Positions 12,994 to 23,581 are shown, counted from the first letter of the stretch. The stretch is 36,484 nt of DNA from Clostridiales bacterium DTU053 (GCA_001512765.1 LFSO01000038.1:16882-53365), one strand, 5' to 3'. The notes: generated by a model from the sequence alone, not told the origin. Made by a program: numbers and translations.

Positions 12994-13671
12994 ATGAGCA
13001 TACTCGACATTGGCGAAACCGGCGGTTCCTTGACCTCAAAGGTATTTACATACCTTGAAAGCGAAATTCTCTCAGGAAATCTGGCACCCGGCACCGTTTT
13101 GACCGAAAGCAAAATCTCAAAGGAGCTGGGCGTCAGCCGCACTCCCGTAAGAGAGGCAATTTTCCAGCTTGAGCAGGAGGGTCTTGTAAAGCTGTCCCAA
13201 AACAAAAGCGCGGTGGTAGTGGGCATATCCCAAAAGGATATAGACGACATCTACACCATAAGGCTCCTGATTGAAGGTCTTGCCTCAAAATGGGCAGCGG
13301 AGCGAATCAGCGACGAGGAGATAAAGAAACTGGAAGAAGTCCTCGAGCTGGAGACCTTCTATGCCGATAGAGGAGACATCGCTAAAAGCAGAAAGCTGGA
13401 CACCGAGTTCCATAGCATACTCTACGACGCCAGCGGCTCAAATCCCCTCAAGAACACGCTTAAAACCTTCCACAACTACATAGGCAGGGCAAGGGAAATC
13501 TCCTTTGCAAGCAACAACAGGGCATTAATTGCCGCCAAGGAGCACGCCGAAATCCTGAAGGCTATAAAAAACCGTGACGGAGAAGAGGCGGAGCGTCTTA
13601 CAAGAGAGCACATTCAAAACGCGAGAGCAAACTTATACTTAGATATGCTTAAGGACAAGGACTCCGTATAA
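12994..13671 (+). CDS. GntR-family transcriptional regulator, FadR/FCD subfamily
   Basis: A 225-residue regulator. Residues about 12-75 are the winged helix (KVFTYLESEILSGNLAPG, LTESKISKELGVSRTPVREAIFQLEQEGLV). Residues about 85-215 are an all-helical FCD ligand-binding domain with the usual metal ligands implied by DTEFHSILYDASG and the later EHAEI and EHIQN histidines. FCD regulators sense carboxylic acids such as citrate, lactate or pyruvate. Its position directly behind a citrate/homocitrate synthase-type gene suggests a product or substrate carboxylate as effector. GGGGGG precedes the ATG. The palindrome at 11545-11580 is its likely operator. Confidence 0.9.
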   Translation: MSILDIGETGGSLTSKVFTYLESEILSGNLAPGTVLTESKISKELGVSRTPVREAIFQLEQEGLVKLSQNKSAVVVGISQKDIDDIYTIRLLIEGLASKWAAERISDEEIKKLEEVLELETFYADRGDIAKSRKLDTEFHSILYDASGSNPLKNTLKTFHNYIGRAREISFASNNRALIAAKEHAEILKAIKNRDGEEAERLTREHIQNARANLYLDMLKDKDSV

Positions 13672-14300: not shown

Positions 14301-14876
14301 CTAATCTAAAATAACGCCGAGGACATTGTTTCCCGCCAAAACGGCATTGGACTCGTCGGTATCAATGTGCATGGCGGGGGAGAAGTTAGGGTGAACTCTT
14401 ACGACAACATCGCCGAAGATGAGCGAACGCTCATCGCTCTCAACCTTAACATTTACTATCTGCTTATCCTTAACGCCGAACTTCTCAGCGGTTTCGGGGT
14501 CAAGGTGAATATGCCTCTTTGCGATAATAACGCCCTCTGAAATCTCAACTTCGCCTTTGGGACCGACAATCTTGCAGCCAGCGCTGCCGGCGATGTCGCC
14601 CGACTCCTTGACGGGAGCCTCAATGCCCAGCATCCTTGCGTCCGTGGCGGAAATCTCAACCTGAGTAGCGTTCCTAACGGGTCCCAGAATTGCTACAGAG
14701 GGAAAAGTGCCCTTCGGTCCGACAACGGCAACCCTCTCCTCACAAGCGTACTGACCGGGCTGAGAAAGCTCCTTTTTGGGGGTGAGCTCATAGCCCTGTC
14801 CGAATAAGATATCAAGGTGTTCCCTTGAAAGATGCACATGTCTTGCCGAAGTTTCAACAAGCACTTTTCTTTCCAT
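14301..14876 (-). CDS. pduL: Phosphate propanoyltransferase (PduL-type phosphotransacylase)
   Basis: Transfers an acyl group between CoA and phosphate (acetyl- or propanoyl-CoA to acyl phosphate). The 191-residue protein contains both PduL halves, with metal-binding histidine clusters SARHVHLS near the N-terminus and AKRHIHLDPETAEKFGV, plus AILGPVRNATQVEIS and RVHPNFSPAMHIDTDE. The start is the ATG at 14876, which follows GGAGGA; an upstream TTG would include that site in the coding region. No microcompartment targeting extension and no shell genes are seen, so it probably serves as a housekeeping acetate-forming phosphotransacetylase in place of Pta. No acetate kinase gene is in the window. 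Confidence 0.92.
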   Translation of the reverse strand: MERKVLVETSARHVHLSREHLDILFGQGYELTPKKELSQPGQYACEERVAVVGPKGTFPSVAILGPVRNATQVEISATDARMLGIEAPVKESGDIAGSAGCKIVGPKGEVEISEGVIIAKRHIHLDPETAEKFGVKDKQIVNVKVESDERSLIFGDVVVRVHPNFSPAMHIDTDESNAVLAGNNVLGVILD

Positions 14877-14975
14877 TTTTTTATCCTCCAAATATAAAAT
14901 GAAAAATCACAAAATTTTCCGGGCACAGCTTTTCACTGTACCCTAAAGGCAAAGGATTTGATAATTTACTCTTAC

Positions 14976-15818: not shown

Positions 15819-16580
15819 TTGACGGATGCAAAAACTCTTGCGTACATAAACATGTATGCTGTCCTGGGTACTCTCGAAAATCTATGTGAGCTGGACCCGA
15901 AGGCGAGCGCGCTGCTCACTAACAAAAAGCCTATATCCATCGCCTTTGATGTAAAGGGCGGCCCCGTTGCCACCATTACATTCAAAAACGGCAAGTGCAG
16001 AATGGTTGACTCGATTTTGCCCGACGCGGACATTAAAATCCCCTTCTCAAGCCCCGAAAAGTTCAACGGTCTTATCGACGGCACAGTTACCCCCATTCCC
16101 ACAAAGGGATTCACAAAGATTCCTTTCCTTCTTAAAGAGTTCAAAAAGCTTACCGACCTTCTCTCATCCTACATGAGGGCCGAGCCGGAAAAACTCGAGG
16201 ACGAGGAATTCTTCAGAATCAGCACAAGCCTTATGTTCTACACAATCTGTGTCGCAGTGGCGCAGATAGGCAACAATGATGAGATAGGCAAGTTCTCCGC
16301 AAGCCACATGGTTGACGGCGACATCATGATTTCCATAGCCGACGGCCCCGCAGCAACCGTCAGGGTCAGAAATCACCGACTCGTCACCATCAAGAAGGCC
16401 CCCGAGAATCCAAGGGCTGTCATGGAGTTTTCAAGCATCCGCCTTGCAAGGGACCTGTTTGACGGCAAGGTCAACGCAGTCGCATGCATCGGCGACGGCA
16501 GCATCAGGATGCGCGGCATGATTTCCATGGTTGACAACCTCAACAGAATACTTGACCGTGTCGGTCTGTATCTTGCGTAA
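15819..16580 (+). CDS. Tandem SCP2-fold (sterol-carrier-like) protein
   Basis: A 253-residue soluble protein made of two SCP2-like repeats. The first (about 33-118) reads as an SCP2 core: IAFDVKGGPVATITFKNGK, ADIKIPFSSPEKFNGLIDG, then an amphipathic helix. The second (about 155-253) has ISIADGPAATVRVRNHR, AVMEFSSIRLARDLFDGKV and GDGSIRMRGMISMVDNLNRIL. SCP2 domains bind hydrophobic ligands such as fatty acyl chains in a tunnel, and also occur as accessory domains in enzymes. The TTG start is chosen because GAGGAGG lies seven bases ahead. First gene of the operon; the sixth gene has the same two-repeat architecture. No signal peptide or membrane segment. Confidence 0.72.
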   Translation: MTDAKTLAYINMYAVLGTLENLCELDPKASALLTNKKPISIAFDVKGGPVATITFKNGKCRMVDSILPDADIKIPFSSPEKFNGLIDGTVTPIPTKGFTKIPFLLKEFKKLTDLLSSYMRAEPEKLEDEEFFRISTSLMFYTICVAVAQIGNNDEIGKFSASHMVDGDIMISIADGPAATVRVRNHRLVTIKKAPENPRAVMEFSSIRLARDLFDGKVNAVACIGDGSIRMRGMISMVDNLNRILDRVGLYLA

Positions 16581-16592
16581 GGAGGAGTGGAA

Positions 16593-17855
16593 ATGGCAAG
16601 AGAGATTAATAAGTACGACAAAAGCCGTGAATGGTTTAAACGCGCGGTAGAGGTCATTCCTTCAGGCGTTTACGGACATCTTGGTCCCGCCGAGGGCTGC
16701 TTTATCCCCGTTGACGCGTTCCCCCTGTTCTCCGAAAGAGCTCAGGGCGCATACTTCTGGGATGTTGACGGCAACCGCTTTATAGACTATATGTGCGCTT
16801 ACGGCCCCAATGTGCTGGGCTACGGCGACCCCGATGTTGACAACGCCGCCATTGAGCAATTAAAGAAGGCAAACTGCACCACTTCTCCCTCCTACAAGAT
16901 GGTAGAGCTGGCAGAGCTGCTTGTGGACACCGTTCACAGTGCAGACTGGGCTTTCTTTGCCAAGAACGGCGGAGATGTCACAACCCTTGCGATAATGACC
17001 GCGAGAGCCGCCACCCACAGAAAGAAGATAGTCTTTACAAAGGGCTTCTATCACGGCGTGGCTCCCTGGACTCAGAAGATAGACTATCCCGGCGTACTGC
17101 CCGAGGATGTCGCCAACAATATCTATATCCCCTGGAACGACGCTGACGCCTTTGAAAAGGTCATAGCCGAGAACGAGGGCGAAATCGCCGCTTTCATCTC
17201 CACGCCTTATATGCACGGCAACTTTGTTGACAATGTTCTGCCGGCAGAAGGCTATTGGAAGAGAATCAGAGAGCTTTGCGACAAGCACGGCATAGTTCTC
17301 ATCTGCGACGATGTACGCTGCGGCTTCCGTCTTGACCTGGCAGGCAGCGACCACTATTTCGGCTTTGAGGCAGACCTTATCTGCTTCTGCAAGGCTATAG
17401 CCAACGGCTGGAATATGTCCGCCCTCTGCGGCAAGGAGCATCTGAAATCCGTAGTCAGCGGCATTACCTATACGGGCAGCTACTGGCTGTCGGCAGCTCC
17501 CTTCGCTGCAGCCATCGCCACAATCAATAAGTTAAAGGCAATCGACGGTCCCAAGATGTTCAAAGAAAAGGGCACCCTCCTTGCCGAAGGCTTAAAGGCC
17601 GCCGCCGCAAACAACGGCTTTGACCTTATTGTATCCGGCGAACCTGCTCTCTTCTATCTCAGAATAGCCAACGACGACTCCCTCATGCTCCATCAGGAGT
17701 GGGTCGCCGAGTGCGTAAAGAGGGGCGTATTCTTCACTAACCATCACAACCACTTCATCAACGCCGCTCTGACCGAAGAGGACATTGCAGAAACCATAGA
17801 AGTCGCTGAGGAAGCCTTCAAGGTAGTAAAGAGAAATCACCCTGAGCTTCAGTAA
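16593..17855 (+). CDS. Class III aminotransferase, glutamate-1-semialdehyde-aminomutase-like
   Basis: A 420-residue PLP enzyme of fold type I, subgroup III. Recognisable parts: the N-terminal VIPSGVYGHLGP, FWDVDGNRFIDYMCAYGPNVLGY, the phosphate-binding region FFAKNGGDVTTLAIMTARAAT, FYHG, the cofactor-ring Asp in LICDDVRCGFR, the Schiff-base lysine in LICFCKAIANGWN, and the TYTGSYWLSAAPFAAAIA loop. It is GSA-AT-like but hemL itself is unlikely: no heme genes are near and the operon is quite different. It would aminate an aldehyde or ketone. ATG at 16593 is preferred because GGAGGAG sits seven bases ahead; GTG at 16587 overlaps that site. Only 12 bases separate it from the SCP2 gene, so they are co-translated. 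Confidence 0.85.
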   Translation: MAREINKYDKSREWFKRAVEVIPSGVYGHLGPAEGCFIPVDAFPLFSERAQGAYFWDVDGNRFIDYMCAYGPNVLGYGDPDVDNAAIEQLKKANCTTSPSYKMVELAELLVDTVHSADWAFFAKNGGDVTTLAIMTARAATHRKKIVFTKGFYHGVAPWTQKIDYPGVLPEDVANNIYIPWNDADAFEKVIAENEGEIAAFISTPYMHGNFVDNVLPAEGYWKRIRELCDKHGIVLICDDVRCGFRLDLAGSDHYFGFEADLICFCKAIANGWNMSALCGKEHLKSVVSGITYTGSYWLSAAPFAAAIATINKLKAIDGPKMFKEKGTLLAEGLKAAAANNGFDLIVSGEPALFYLRIANDDSLMLHQEWVAECVKRGVFFTNHHNHFINAALTEEDIAETIEVAEEAFKVVKRNHPELQ

Positions 17856-17876
17856 GTGATAAGCGGGAGGTACAAA

Positions 17877-18296
17877 GTGTTCTACGGCAATGAGTACGAA
17901 GCGGTAACAAGCTACAGTGCTATAAGGGACTCTGTTGCGGGATTTATGTTCTTTGCCCTTATATTCACTTCCGTTACCTTCTTCATTTCCTTCATTCCCA
18001 TGATAATTGCCTATGTGCGAAAGCACCCCAAAAGGCAGTTTATCGCCATAATCAGCTTCATTGTACCTCCCCTCGGATTCATAATAGCCCTTATCTGGGC
18101 GCTTACTGACACAGACCCGGAAAATCAGTGGTTCTCAAATCTCTTTTCCTCCCGCAAAAAAGAGCCGGACGACACTCCGAGGCCCGACCCCCAGCTTTTA
18201 AAGGCATTGTTTCACCTTGACTCTTTATACAGGCAGGGGATTCTGACCGAGGAGGAGTACAAAGAAAAGCGGGCGGAAATAATCAAAAGACTTTAA
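17877..18296 (+). CDS. Small membrane protein with C-terminal SHOCT domain
   Basis: A 140-residue protein. Two hydrophobic segments (about 23-46 and 56-76) make a membrane hairpin, followed by a polar linker and a C-terminal SHOCT motif (LLKALFHLDSLYRQGILTEEEYKEKRAEIIKRL in parts: L-x-x-L-x-x-L-Y-x-x-G-I-L-T-x-E-E-Y). SHOCT helices are short oligomerisation elements often attached to membrane or secreted proteins. The start is GTG at 17877, seven bases after GGGAGG; an in-frame GTG at 17856 lacks a site. It lies inside the operon, and could tether the pathway enzymes to the membrane. That role is only a guess. Confidence 0.7.
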   Translation: MFYGNEYEAVTSYSAIRDSVAGFMFFALIFTSVTFFISFIPMIIAYVRKHPKRQFIAIISFIVPPLGFIIALIWALTDTDPENQWFSNLFSSRKKEPDDTPRPDPQLLKALFHLDSLYRQGILTEEEYKEKRAEIIKRL

Positions 18297-18350
18297 ATGC
18301 GGCGCTGACCCTTACTTGCTAAACAAAATTAATGGACTGGAGGTAAATCA

Positions 18351-19220
18351 ATGGCACTGAAAAAAGCCGATTGGCTCGCCCTTGAAAAAAAGGCTCACGA
18401 GCTGAGGCGACTTACCCTTGATACCACCTTTTGGGCCGGCAGCGGACATATTGGTGGCGGCATGAGCGTTCTTGATATGCTCACAATTCTTTATCACCGT
18501 TATATGAACATTAAGCTTGAAGACCCCAACTGGGAGGACAGAGACCGTCTTGTCCTCAGCAAAGGTCACGCCGGCATAGCCTATGCCCCCGTTCTCTGCG
18601 ATTTGGGCTGGAACGACATGGAGCAGCTCAAAACCTTTAACCACACCAACTCCCTTATGGGTATGCACCTTGACTCCAATAAGGTTGTGGGCGTTGACGC
18701 CTCCACTGGCTCACTGGGACACGGCCTTTCAATCGCCGTGGGCATGGCTCTTGCGGCAAAGGTTCTGGGCAAAACCTATAAAACATACTGCATCCTCGGC
18801 GACGGCGAGTGCGACGAGGGCTCCAACTGGGAGGCAGCAATGACCGCCGCCCACTATAAGGTAAACAACCTTATTACATTCGTTGACCGCAACAAGTGCA
18901 TGATTGACGGCAAGACAGAAGATGTCATGGGACTCGAGCCCTTTGCCGACAAGTGGAAGTCATTCGGCTTCATCGTAAAAGAGGTCGACGGACATAACTT
19001 CAACGAACTTTCCGAGGCTATTGACTTTGCTCTTAACAACGACGGCGCTCCCGTAGTAATCATAGCCCACACCATAAAGGGCGCAGGCATCGACTTTATG
19101 GAGGACAACTATGTATGGCACTACGGCGCCATTGACAGCGACAAGTACGAGGACGCAAAGAAGAGCCTTGACGCATACTACAAGAAGCGTGTAGAGCGCG
19201 CAGAAAGGGAGGGAGCATAA
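18351..19220 (+). CDS. Transketolase, N-terminal (TPP-binding) subunit
   Basis: The TPP-binding half of a split transketolase, 289 residues. Seen are LDTTFWAGSGHIGGGMSVLDML, the catalytic-site histidine region LSKGHAGIAYAP, DASTGSLGHGLSIAVGMALA and the TPP/Mg motif GDGECDEGSNWEAA ending in VNN, with HTIKGAG near the C-terminus. Together with the next gene it would transfer a two-carbon ketol unit between a ketose donor and an aldehyde acceptor. Split transketolases are common in Clostridia and archaea; some serve pentose metabolism, others specialised pathways. GGAGG precedes the ATG. The stop is two bases before the start of the C-terminal subunit gene. Confidence 0.93.
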   Translation: MALKKADWLALEKKAHELRRLTLDTTFWAGSGHIGGGMSVLDMLTILYHRYMNIKLEDPNWEDRDRLVLSKGHAGIAYAPVLCDLGWNDMEQLKTFNHTNSLMGMHLDSNKVVGVDASTGSLGHGLSIAVGMALAAKVLGKTYKTYCILGDGECDEGSNWEAAMTAAHYKVNNLITFVDRNKCMIDGKTEDVMGLEPFADKWKSFGFIVKEVDGHNFNELSEAIDFALNNDGAPVVIIAHTIKGAGIDFMEDNYVWHYGAIDSDKYEDAKKSLDAYYKKRVERAEREGA

Positions 19221-19222
19221 TT

Positions 19223-20233
19223 ATGGCAGGAGGACTTACTTACACAGCCGTTGATTCCACATCTCTTTCAACTGCTGAGATTTACGGAAAAGCATTGGTA
19301 GAGCTGGGCAGAGAGCATCCCGAGGTCGTTGCTCTGACCGCTGACCTCGCAAAGTCAACCAAAATCGGCGACTTCATGAAGGAGTTCCCCGAGCGTTTCT
19401 TCAATGTGGGCATTGCCGAGCAGAACCTCCTCGGCGTTGCGGCAGGTATGGCAAAGTCGGGTCTTGTTCCCTTTGCTTCAACCTTCTCGCAGTTCGCCTC
19501 CTTCAGAGCCGCTGACCAGCTCCACACCGACATTTGCTATCAGAATGTAAATGTCAAGGTTATCGCAACCCATTCGGGAACCTCCTTCGGCCAGGCAGGC
19601 TCCACTCACCACGCAATCTGCGACTTAGCCGTTACAAGGTCCATCCCGAATCTTACAGTTATAGTTCCCGCCGACGGCGTGGAAACCTACAATGCCGTAA
19701 TGGCGGCATACGAAACACCCGGCCCCTTCTACATCCGCATTAACAGAGGCTTTGACAGGGTGCTCTATAAGGATTCCAACTACGGCTTTGAGGTCGGCAA
19801 GGCTGTCACCGTAAAGGAAGGCACCGACATCACCGTCATCGCCTGCGGCTCATGCGTATTCCAGGCTCTGCAGGCCGCTGAGTTCCTTGAGAAGACCGAC
19901 GGACTGAAAGTCAGAGTTCTCGATATGCACACCATCAAGCCCATCGACAAAGAGGCTATCCAGAAGGCAGTATTCGAGACAAGAAGAATCATCACCGTTG
20001 AGGACCACAATATTCTCGGCGGTCTCGGCTCCGCCGTTGCCGAGGTCGTTGTTGACTACGGCAAGGCATGCGCCTTCAAGAAACTCGGCATTCCCGACAA
20101 GTTCGCCCCCATCGGTCTGCATGAGGATATTATGTCCATCGTGGGCATCGACTCCAACGGCATAATCGAGGCCGTAAGAGAGGTAATGGGCAAAGACTTT
20201 GAGCTTGATGACGACTGGGACGATGAGGTCTAA
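19223..20233 (+). CDS. Transketolase, C-terminal subunit
   Basis: The pyrimidine-binding and C-terminal domains of the split transketolase, 336 residues. The catalytic glutamate that activates TPP lies in FFNVGIAEQNLLGVAAGMA. The FSQFASFRAADQLHTD and THSGTSFGQAGSTHHAICDLA segments follow, the latter carrying active-site histidines. The C-terminal domain has VIACGSCVFQALQAA and VEDHNILGGLGSAVAEV. It is complete for a subunit of this type and must pair with the preceding gene product. GGGAGGGAGC within the end of that gene acts as ribosome binding site, so expression is coupled. The C-terminal tail FELDDDWDDEV is unusually acidic. Confidence 0.93.
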   Translation: MAGGLTYTAVDSTSLSTAEIYGKALVELGREHPEVVALTADLAKSTKIGDFMKEFPERFFNVGIAEQNLLGVAAGMAKSGLVPFASTFSQFASFRAADQLHTDICYQNVNVKVIATHSGTSFGQAGSTHHAICDLAVTRSIPNLTVIVPADGVETYNAVMAAYETPGPFYIRINRGFDRVLYKDSNYGFEVGKAVTVKEGTDITVIACGSCVFQALQAAEFLEKTDGLKVRVLDMHTIKPIDKEAIQKAVFETRRIITVEDHNILGGLGSAVAEVVVDYGKACAFKKLGIPDKFAPIGLHEDIMSIVGIDSNGIIEAVREVMGKDFELDDDWDDEV

Positions 20234-20265
20234 GCTCCTTAAAAATTTAAAATAAGGAGGATAAT

Positions 20266-21072
20266 ATGGCTGATAATTTAACATTGATGACGAATAAAAT
20301 ATTTCTTAACGCCGCCCTGCCTCTTGTCAAGGTCATTGCCACCGATGTCCCGTCCCTTGCGAAGAAGTTTAAAAACATACACGCCGTAATTCAGGTCAGC
20401 GCTCTTGACAGCTCTGAGCCCCACGGCAAAGCGGCAACCCATTTCGTGGTCAACGCAGGGGAGTGGCTTGTTCACGCCGACAAGGTCTCCACAAAGGTAA
20501 ATGTGGAGCTTCAGTTTAAGAGCAGAGAGGCTATGAACGACTTCTTCAAGGGCAAGATTTCCCCCGCCACACTGCCCAAGATGATAGGAGTCACCAAGAA
20601 CCTAAAGGCATTCATCGCCTTTATGTCGGTGCTTCTGAAGATGTCGTCCCTTCTGGGCGCCACTCAGCCGCCCGAGGATTACGAGGAGAAAAAGCTGCTT
20701 GTAAAGTGCTTCTTCTACCTTCTGTCCAGCGGTATCAGCCAGCTTAACAAGAGCGGTCACGAGGCTGTCCATTCATGGGCGCTCAAGAGCCCCGACCGCG
20801 TCTATGCGTGGGCTGTTGACGGCGAGCCCGAGGTATCGGCATACCTGCGCGTAAAGGCAGGCAAGACAAAGGCAGGCAGGGGAGAGTACAAAAGGTCAAT
20901 GCCCTTCTTCAAGATGCGCTTTGACTCCCTTGACTCCGCCCTTGGAATACTTATGCAGACGGACGATATGCTGGAGTCCACAAGACAGGGCAAGCTGATA
21001 ATGGACGGCGCTCCCGAATTCGGCGCCCAAATCGGCGAGTTTATGATGCTTGTGGGCGAGCTGGCAAAATAA
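20266..21072 (+). CDS. Second tandem SCP2-fold protein
   Basis: A 268-residue soluble protein with weak but clear likeness to the first operon gene. Repeat one (about 40-110): HFVVNAGEWLVHADKV, VNVELQFKSREAMNDFFKGK and a helix ending PKMIGV. After a hydrophobic helical linker (about 115-165), repeat two (about 175-268) has VYAWAVDGEPEVSAYLRV, FFKMRFDSLDSALGILM and GKLIMDGAPEFGAQIGEFMMLV. The order strand, strand, helix, G-K-(I/L) turn, helix is the SCP2 plan. It would bind a hydrophobic ligand; whether it carries a substrate or has lost the cavity cannot be read here. GGAGG is ten bases ahead of the ATG. A terminator follows. Confidence 0.65.
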   Translation: MADNLTLMTNKIFLNAALPLVKVIATDVPSLAKKFKNIHAVIQVSALDSSEPHGKAATHFVVNAGEWLVHADKVSTKVNVELQFKSREAMNDFFKGKISPATLPKMIGVTKNLKAFIAFMSVLLKMSSLLGATQPPEDYEEKKLLVKCFFYLLSSGISQLNKSGHEAVHSWALKSPDRVYAWAVDGEPEVSAYLRVKAGKTKAGRGEYKRSMPFFKMRFDSLDSALGILMQTDDMLESTRQGKLIMDGAPEFGAQIGEFMMLVGELAK

Positions 21073-21088
21073 AACCCGCTAAACCAAT

Positions 21089-21118
21089 CACAGGGGAGTT
21101 TATCTCCCCTGTTTTTTA
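21089..21118 (+). terminator. Terminator between the operon and the PIG-L gene
   Basis: ACAGGGGAG / CTCCCCTGT stem with a TTTAT loop and a TTTTTT tail, 10 bases before the PIG-L start. The PIG-L gene has no obvious promoter of its own in the 56-base gap, so read-through may drive it. Confidence 0.85.
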
Positions 21119-21128
21119 AGGTGATTTA

Positions 21129-21869
21129 ATGAGTAAAATCCTTTTTATCGGCGCCCATAACGACGAGTGCGAGTACGGCACGGGCGGAATCGCCGCGCTG
21201 CTGTCACACGCCGGTCATGAGGTAATGTTTTTAAATGTGGCTTGCAAACGCCACTCAGTGAGAACTCCCGAAAGGCTCAAAGTCGAGGAGGAGATGGAAA
21301 GAAGAGCCGCGGAAATCTTGGGCGCGAAAAAGAAAATCGTCGGGGACAGAAGCTCCTCTGCTTACTTTCAAACCCCCGAAAACACGGAAATCATAATGAA
21401 CGAGATAATCGCTTTCAAGCCCGACATAGTCTTTATGCACTGGCCAAAGGACAATCATATCGAGCATAGGGAGGTCTCGCGCGCGACCCTTGACGCTCTC
21501 TGCCTTGCGGCGGTCAGATGCGTGGTTCCGAGCGAAACCTACGCTTTTGAGGCGGGTCCCGACCAGACTATGCAGTATTTTCAGCCAGACATCTATATTG
21601 ATATAACGGAAGCGGCTCCCCTTGTGGAAAAGAGCCTTAAAACCTTTGACATGGAGCACGCGAACGGCGAGGAGCTTTGGAGGGAAAAGGAAGTCTGCGC
21701 AAGGTTCAGAGGCCACCTTGCGGGCGTAAAATACGCAGAGACGCTAAAGATAATAAAATTCCCGACAGGCTTTGAGGAAAACGAGCTTTTGCTCCCAAAA
21801 CTTCTGAAAGGCAAATTCTCCTGGCACAATGTCGGCATGTACCCCTGGGGACGACAGTATTTTCTCTAA
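21129..21869 (+). CDS. PIG-L family deacetylase (LmbE-like)
   Basis: A 246-residue zinc-dependent deacetylase of the PIG-L/LmbE fold. It opens KILFIGAHNDECEYGTGG, where the family normally has AH(P/S)DDE; here Asn replaces the proline. The second zinc/catalytic motif is HWPKDNHIEHREVSRAT (HPDHxxxH type, with the three histidines and Asp kept). Known members remove N-acetyl groups from sugar conjugates (GlcNAc-PI, GlcNAc-inositol, bacillithiol precursors) or from lipids and antibiotics. It lies 56 bases behind the SCP2/transketolase operon on the same strand and may belong to that pathway. AAGGTGA precedes the ATG. Confidence 0.88.
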   Translation: MSKILFIGAHNDECEYGTGGIAALLSHAGHEVMFLNVACKRHSVRTPERLKVEEEMERRAAEILGAKKKIVGDRSSSAYFQTPENTEIIMNEIIAFKPDIVFMHWPKDNHIEHREVSRATLDALCLAAVRCVVPSETYAFEAGPDQTMQYFQPDIYIDITEAAPLVEKSLKTFDMEHANGEELWREKEVCARFRGHLAGVKYAETLKIIKFPTGFEENELLLPKLLKGKFSWHNVGMYPWGRQYFL

Positions 21870-23394: not shown

Positions 23395-23546
23395 ATCCTT
23401 TCACCTGCCTTAACAAAAATATTAAAGCTCTTTCCGCAAACCGTGGAAAGAGCATAATTAATCCAAAATAAGATTCAATTTAAGCTCTATTCCTCGGCAG
23501 GCGGCAAAGCCATTATGCATAAAGCACCTGCTGTCTTAAGAACAGC
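23395..23546 (-). promoter_or_regulatory. L10-type ribosomal-protein leader with attenuator
   Basis: The minus-strand leader contains AGACAGCAGGTGC and, further on, GCCGCCTGCCGAGG, the paired conserved strands of the L10 leader to which L10(L12)4 binds. Near the gene, GCTCTTTCC / GGAAAGAGC (about 23431-23457) forms a hairpin followed by TTTAATATTTTT, an attenuator. L10 binding presumably promotes termination. Confidence 0.8.
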
Positions 23547-23552
23547 TTTGTC

Positions 23553-23581
23553 ATTGTAGCATTCGTTACACAAAATGTCAA
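23553..23581 (-). promoter_or_regulatory. Promoter of rplJL
   Basis: On the minus strand TTGACA (23576-23581), 17 bases, TACAAT (23553-23558). Confidence 0.9.

Follow-up and report, generated by a model that had tools for sequence, protein, structure and literature searches.

A conserved aminotransferase, split transketolase and SCP2-like carrier operon of gut and rumen Clostridia with a possible role in sphingoid-type lipid metabolism

What could an aminotransferase, both subunits of a split transketolase and two SCP2-like proteins be doing in one operon? The question is raised by a stretch of 36,484 nucleotides from Clostridiales bacterium DTU053 (GCA_001512765.1 LFSO01000038.1:16882-53365, hereafter the window, with positions counted from its first letter), for which an initial annotation, made from the sequence alone, had proposed a pathway building the head group of a sphingoid base from a hydrophobic aldehyde without serine palmitoyltransferase (SPT). 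Here we report that five of these genes, in the order SCP2a-AT-TKa-TKb-SCP2b (carrier, aminotransferase, the two transketolase subunits, second carrier), are a conserved unit found in many gut and rumen Clostridia, that the substrates of this unit are probably sphingoid-type lipids, i.e., long-chain 2-amino-1,3-diols, and that the unit may be a route for their breakdown, a reading to which we assign, tentatively, a probability of roughly 0.45.

Results

All six open reading frames (ORFs) of the operon and the PIG-L gene trailing it were confirmed, tightly packed on one strand, at the positions given in the initial annotation, which had also placed a terminator ahead of PIG-L, where a terminator-like hairpin was indeed found (aa, amino acids; PLP, pyridoxal phosphate):

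15819..16580, + strand: SCP2a, predicted lipid carrier made of two SCP2-like domains in tandem, 253 aa with a TTG start (Pfam SCP2 at 21.3 bits, exactly at the cut-off; structure model; fold search)
16587..17855, + strand: AT, class III PLP aminotransferase, FumI-like, 422 aa, catalytic Lys K269 (Aminotran_3, 136 bits)
17856..18296, + strand: SHOCT membrane protein, outside the conserved core (SHOCT, 27.8 bits)
18351..19220, + strand: TKa, N-terminal (diphosphate-binding) subunit of a split transketolase (Pfam Transketolase_N)
19223..20233, + strand: TKb, C-terminal (pyrimidine-binding) subunit, with R318 and D424 replaced by Ala (Transket_pyr and Transketolase_C)
20266..21072, + strand: SCP2b, second predicted tandem double SCP2-like protein, 268 aa (structure model and fold search; no Pfam match in the window copy)
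21090..21112, + strand: terminator-like hairpin with a T run, between SCP2b and PIG-L (consensus scan only)
21129..21869, + strand: PIG-L family deacetylase, outside the conserved unit (PIG-L, 44.2 bits)

Genomes of GTDB species were scanned with an alignment of three ATs, which confirmed at least 503 AT relatives, and the best 80 of these (71–88% identity) were fetched; almost all are metagenome-assembled genomes of Clostridia, mostly from gut, rumen or faeces where the title names a source. SCP2a lies upstream of AT in all 75 loci with room on that side, and the full order SCP2a-AT-TKa-TKb-SCP2b was found in 57 of the 63 loci extending more than 4.2 kb past AT, with median gaps of 3–52 bases between core genes; in one of the six exceptions (L092) the genes are present, TKa having been dropped by ORF calling. 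This conservation of gene order is far beyond chance and bears out the synteny across Clostridia that the initial annotation had named as a check on its reading. Divergence among the ATs is mirrored by that among each of the four partner proteins (rho 0.46–0.60, equalled in 0 of 500 permutations), as expected for joint inheritance. Outside this core, any given neighbour is shared by at most 10 of the 80 loci. The SHOCT and PIG-L genes, which had been counted among the pathway parts, accompany the unit only in the window and in its nearest relative (L025, AT 88% identical) and were rejected as pathway members.

Among a background set of 391 genomes of the class, AT was detected in five at E <= 1e-60, the window counted; in the two close ones (66–68%) SCP2a adjoins AT. 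Past SCP2b, at about +4.1 kb from AT, six loci (including L043, L045, L053 and L058) encode an uncharacterised protein of ~430 aa together with a zinc-ribbon protein, and six others (including L062, L066, L068 and L089) encode an NAD-epimerase-like protein past the operon.

The aminotransferase had been annotated as being of the glutamate-1-semialdehyde (GSA) type; it scores 207.6 bits against HemL (TIGR00713), far under the cut-off of 527.3, and its best match in the PDB is FumI (6hbs) with 303.7 bits, versus 167 bits for GSA aminomutase. The catalytic lysine is aligned with that of FumI and, as K269, is invariant in the relatives aligned, which places AT as a class III enzyme nearer to FumI than to GSA aminomutase. 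FumI strips the C2 amine from hydrolysed fumonisin B1 (PMC2933618), and fumonisins resemble sphingosine and sphinganine (PMC9858248). The FumI of Sphingopyxis is a class III aminotransferase whose substrate, analogous to sphinganine, loses its C2 amine, although AT is only its distant kin, plasmid-borne related proteins being ~38–41% identical to AT. FumI also belongs to a fumonisin pathway that is not known to include a transketolase.

The two transketolase subunits were aligned with human and Carboxydothermus transketolase (72 TKa and 69 TKb sequences, with R318 scored in the 68 rows having a letter there; human numbering throughout). H37, H77, H110, D155, N185, K244 and H258 of TKa are kept in 72/72 sequences and the catalytic E366 and H416 of TKb in 69/69, but D424 is replaced by Ala and E423 by Gln in every TKb (69/69), and R318 by Ala, Thr or Ser in 68/68, while the phosphate contacts S345 and R474 are kept. 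We take D424, S345 and R474 to correspond to D469, S385 and R520 of the Escherichia coli enzyme. The pair is thus predicted to be a transketolase by mechanism, and it lacks the residues expected for sugar substrates at 424 and 318. In E. coli, transketolase engineered at D469, S385 and R520 has its range shifted to non-polar aliphatic and aromatic aldehydes, D469T and R520Q opening the enzyme to non-polar aldehydes (PMC5073344), and R358 has also been named as a site for such changes of range (PMC7661550).

The genome from which the window is taken (1.9 Mb, 98.5% complete) has two more split transketolases (C47 and C33), so that the one in the operon is not its only transketolase, a finding that the initial annotation had named as refuting its reading. 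Both keep R318 and D424, which are also retained by most of the other split copies examined, and a fourth match, in a longer frame of 617 aa, is probably DXS. The TKb of the operon type forms one clade, whose sister is a second type with D424A and R318 kept. This second type sits in TKa-TKb-SCP2b-ZnADH-MerR clusters without AT, ZnADH being a Zn-dependent alcohol dehydrogenase. Loci of this kind are L017:3043-9460, L018:1273-6329, L019:7023-12075 and L020:3-4190; the cluster of L017 additionally has an aldehyde dehydrogenase, and the D424A and R318 residues were read in L018–L020.

Two known systems invite comparison. The split transketolase of Carboxydothermus hydrogenoformans, the nearest PDB match, shares the two-subunit layout and catalytic residues and also accepts bulkier aldehydes (PMC7661550), but keeps the equivalents of D424 and R318 and is a sugar transketolase. 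In Clostridium scindens, the split transketolase encoded by desAB has been proposed to cut the two-carbon side chain from cortisol (PMC3735941); compared by its description, it is likewise a split enzyme of a gut Clostridium proposed to take a two-carbon ketol off a lipophilic substrate, but the desABCD operon encodes a 20alpha-hydroxysteroid dehydrogenase and a transporter and, as described, has no aminotransferase, with no SCP2 gene mentioned. Neither a dehydrogenase nor a transporter recurs beside the five-gene core, and the TK-SCP2b-ZnADH-MerR clusters belong to a transketolase clade separate from the operon type.

For the carriers, Pfam SCP2 matches 29 of 60 members of the SCP2a family and 6 of 55 of the SCP2b family, and the two proteins are homologous according to a profile comparison (hhalign 96%, E 1.5e-9). 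AlphaFold2 models (pLDDT 95.0 for SCP2a and 93.9 for SCP2b) show two tandem SCP2-like domains each, so that the SCP2 folds named in the initial annotation are retained with the addition that both are doubled. Foldseek searches with either model gave as best matches SdsA1/Pisa1 alkylsulfatases and many SCP2 proteins (E ~1e-4, probability 1.00, TMt ~0.5–0.7 for single SCP2 domains), consistent with the SCP2 fold; some of the matched structures were solved with dodecanol or decane-sulfonate. For the SCP2b of the window the predicted assignment draws on the model, the fold search, the hhalign match to SCP2a and the Pfam matches within its family.

A link to sphingoid bases was provided by the gene neighbourhood of AT in a relative (L100) in which SPT and then a 3-ketosphinganine reductase (KDSR) lie directly ahead of SCP2a-AT as a four-gene cluster. 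The SPT matches PDB 3a2b with 402 bits and has SerpalmtaseCFB as its best NCBIfam family (516 bits, under the cut-off of 640); for KDSR, NF049977 is the best family (218 bits, the next reaching 170), also under its cut-off (400). The same cluster occurs in L131 and L132, of the same family as L100, making three genomes in total, and these clusters point to a sphingoid base as the substrate, lending independent support to the head group guessed in the initial annotation. In two further genomes with AT and without the transketolase genes (G316 and G458), SPT-KDSR lies elsewhere in the genome, and seven genomes carry SCP2a-AT without transketolase genes outside SPT clusters (L015, L016, L095, L096, L101, L102 and L133). 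In the AT tree all ATs lacking transketolase partners, except that of L042, group as a single clade nested within the operon type, the SPT-linked ones being one subclade (96% SH-aLRT).

SPT occurs in 5 of 10 AT genomes without transketolase genes versus 46 of the 391 class genomes at >=58% identity (p 0.004, uncorrected for kinship), and in none of the 23 genomes with the full five-gene operon (type I) versus the same background of 12% (p 0.09, not significant and likewise uncorrected), on account of which a strict mutual exclusion of SPT and transketolase was dropped. No SPT was detected in the genome of the window, as the initial annotation had presumed, with a query identical to that which found SPT in the five other AT genomes. 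Bacterial sphinganine synthesis by SPT and KDSR would share its compound with the operon and clusters with SCP2a-AT in three relatives, but it differs in using serine and acyl-CoA. The background frequency itself suggests that sphingolipid synthesis may occur in many Clostridia. In L172, L173, L174, L175, L168, L169, L131, L132 and L134 a KDSR-like gene follows SPT, and at L186:6451-9016 a Zn-dependent alcohol dehydrogenase lies directly downstream of SPT on the same strand, 34% identical to the one encoded in the TKa-TKb-SCP2b-ZnADH-MerR clusters.

As for the surroundings of the operon, promoter-like sites are not in excess in the window (8, versus 7.5 in shuffles) and lend no support to the single promoter named in the initial annotation, and no Rfam match, be it a thiamine pyrophosphate riboswitch or other RNA control, lies near the operon; the only one, an L10_leader at 23412-23558 (-), precedes the L10/L12 ribosomal protein genes. 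The PIG-L protein scores 67 bits against BshB1, short of the cut-off of 182.5. Upstream are a PduL-type phosphate propanoyltransferase (14301-14891, -) and a GntR/FCD regulator (12994-13671, +; best match TIGR03338 phnR_burk, 132 bits, missing the cut-off of 271.5), neither with a clear link to the operon. A viral origin was rejected, viral_contigs having given no match.

Discussion

The altered residues of the transketolase at 424 and 318 and the FumI-like aminotransferase support a hydrophobic substrate, as the initial annotation had it, and the simplest account fitting both architectures, the five-gene operon and the SPT-KDSR-SCP2a-AT cluster, would make the 2-amino-1,3-diol head group the target of AT. 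In the breakdown route that we favour, SCP2a would present the lipid, the FumI-like AT would take off the C2 amine to give R-CH(OH)-CO-CH2OH, and the split transketolase would remove C1-C2 as a ketol onto an aldose phosphate, feeding the pentose phosphate pathway and freeing a long-chain aldehyde to be handled by SCP2b. Probable sources of the lipid are sphinganine, sphingosine and phytosphingosine from the host and the diet, in gut and rumen. Since sphinganine would already have been made before AT comes into play in the SPT-KDSR-SCP2a-AT clusters, AT would there more economically remove the amine than add it, and breakdown is for this reason ranked above synthesis; in the operon AT also precedes the transketolase genes, matching the order of breakdown. 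The pathway first proposed is supported in part, its sphingoid head group gaining support and its synthetic direction ranking below breakdown.

A number of points weigh against this breakdown route. The ketol derived from D-erythro sphingoid bases would be 3R whereas the donors of normal transketolases are 3S, which would require this transketolase to depart from the usual stereochemistry, and the kept R474 and S345 imply that a sugar phosphate would still be bound, here as the acceptor and perhaps, in synthesis, as the donor. No constant aldehyde sink was found: an aldehyde dehydrogenase like that of L017 is present in only 4 of the 23 type I genomes (that of the window has one), and was rejected as a general sink. 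There is no regulator that ties the operon to lipids, and GntR is encoded far upstream, while FumI-like relatives elsewhere (plasmid homologues) stand in varied contexts and are uninformative. Matches to Ceramidase_alk (PF04734) in 18 of 28 genomes are weak (<=42 bits) and partial; being such, and lacking a background rate, they were not used as a sign of catabolism. The operon genomes, including that of the window, have up to five paralogues per genome, of ~450–650 aa, with such matches.

The AT and transketolase steps being reversible, the same enzymes could also work in the opposite direction, with a long-chain aldehyde extended by the ketol on the transketolase and the resulting ketone aminated by AT, to yield a sphingoid base without SPT. 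This is possible but rather unlikely: the kept phosphate contacts would suit a sugar-phosphate donor, and the absence of SPT from all 23 full-operon genomes is as expected if transketolase and AT replace SPT and KDSR, but that absence is not significant against the background, AT would be idle in the SPT-KDSR-SCP2a-AT clusters, and neither a source of fatty aldehyde nor an N-acyltransferase recurs beside the operon. We regard as unlikelier still that the same chemistry serves another lipophilic 2-amino-1,3-diol or ketol, be it aromatic, isoprenoid or steroid-like. Transketolases changed at D469 do accept aromatic aldehydes as well (PMC5073344), DesAB is proposed to use a steroid, ligands of many kinds are bound by SCP2 folds, and the related TK-SCP2b clusters carry a Zn-dependent alcohol dehydrogenase in the place of AT; such a substrate is at odds, however, with the three genomes in which SPT and KDSR cluster with SCP2a-AT and with FumI being the nearest solved relative of AT.

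A role in defence, with AT and SCP2a detoxifying antimicrobial long-chain bases by deamination and the transketolase pair as an add-on for carbon salvage, would agree with the seven genomes that have SCP2a-AT without transketolase outside SPT clusters, and with FumI, which detoxifies a sphinganine analogue (PMC2933618), but it leaves the clustering with SPT-KDSR unexplained and no stress regulator lies nearby, so that we deem it improbable. That the operon is an ordinary one for amino sugars or pentose phosphates, or a chance neighbourhood, appears very improbable: these enzyme families are common and the transketolase keeps R474 and S345, but the canonical D424 and R318 are present in both further split transketolases of this genome, and the order kept in 57 of 63 loci includes two carrier proteins.

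In conclusion, we consider the odds to lie slightly in favour of an undescribed anaerobic sphingoid-base pathway in gut and rumen Clostridia, in which a transaminase and a transketolase would connect lipid with sugar metabolism. No description of an AT, an altered transketolase and two lipid carriers together was found in the open-access literature, searched for sphingoid, transketolase and fatty aldehyde, and to our knowledge no transketolase step has been described in sphingolipid metabolism. If true, the pathway would in one direction replace sphingosine-1-phosphate lyase and in the other make sphingoid bases without SPT, and genes shared by several hundred genomes at least, whose products would otherwise be called GSA aminomutase-like and transketolase, would gain a function. 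Sphingoid bases are signalling lipids of the host as well as antimicrobials; abundant uncultured bacteria of the gut and rumen would then either convert them to aldehydes and sugar phosphates or produce them, offering a testable route linking diet, host lipids and the microbiota.

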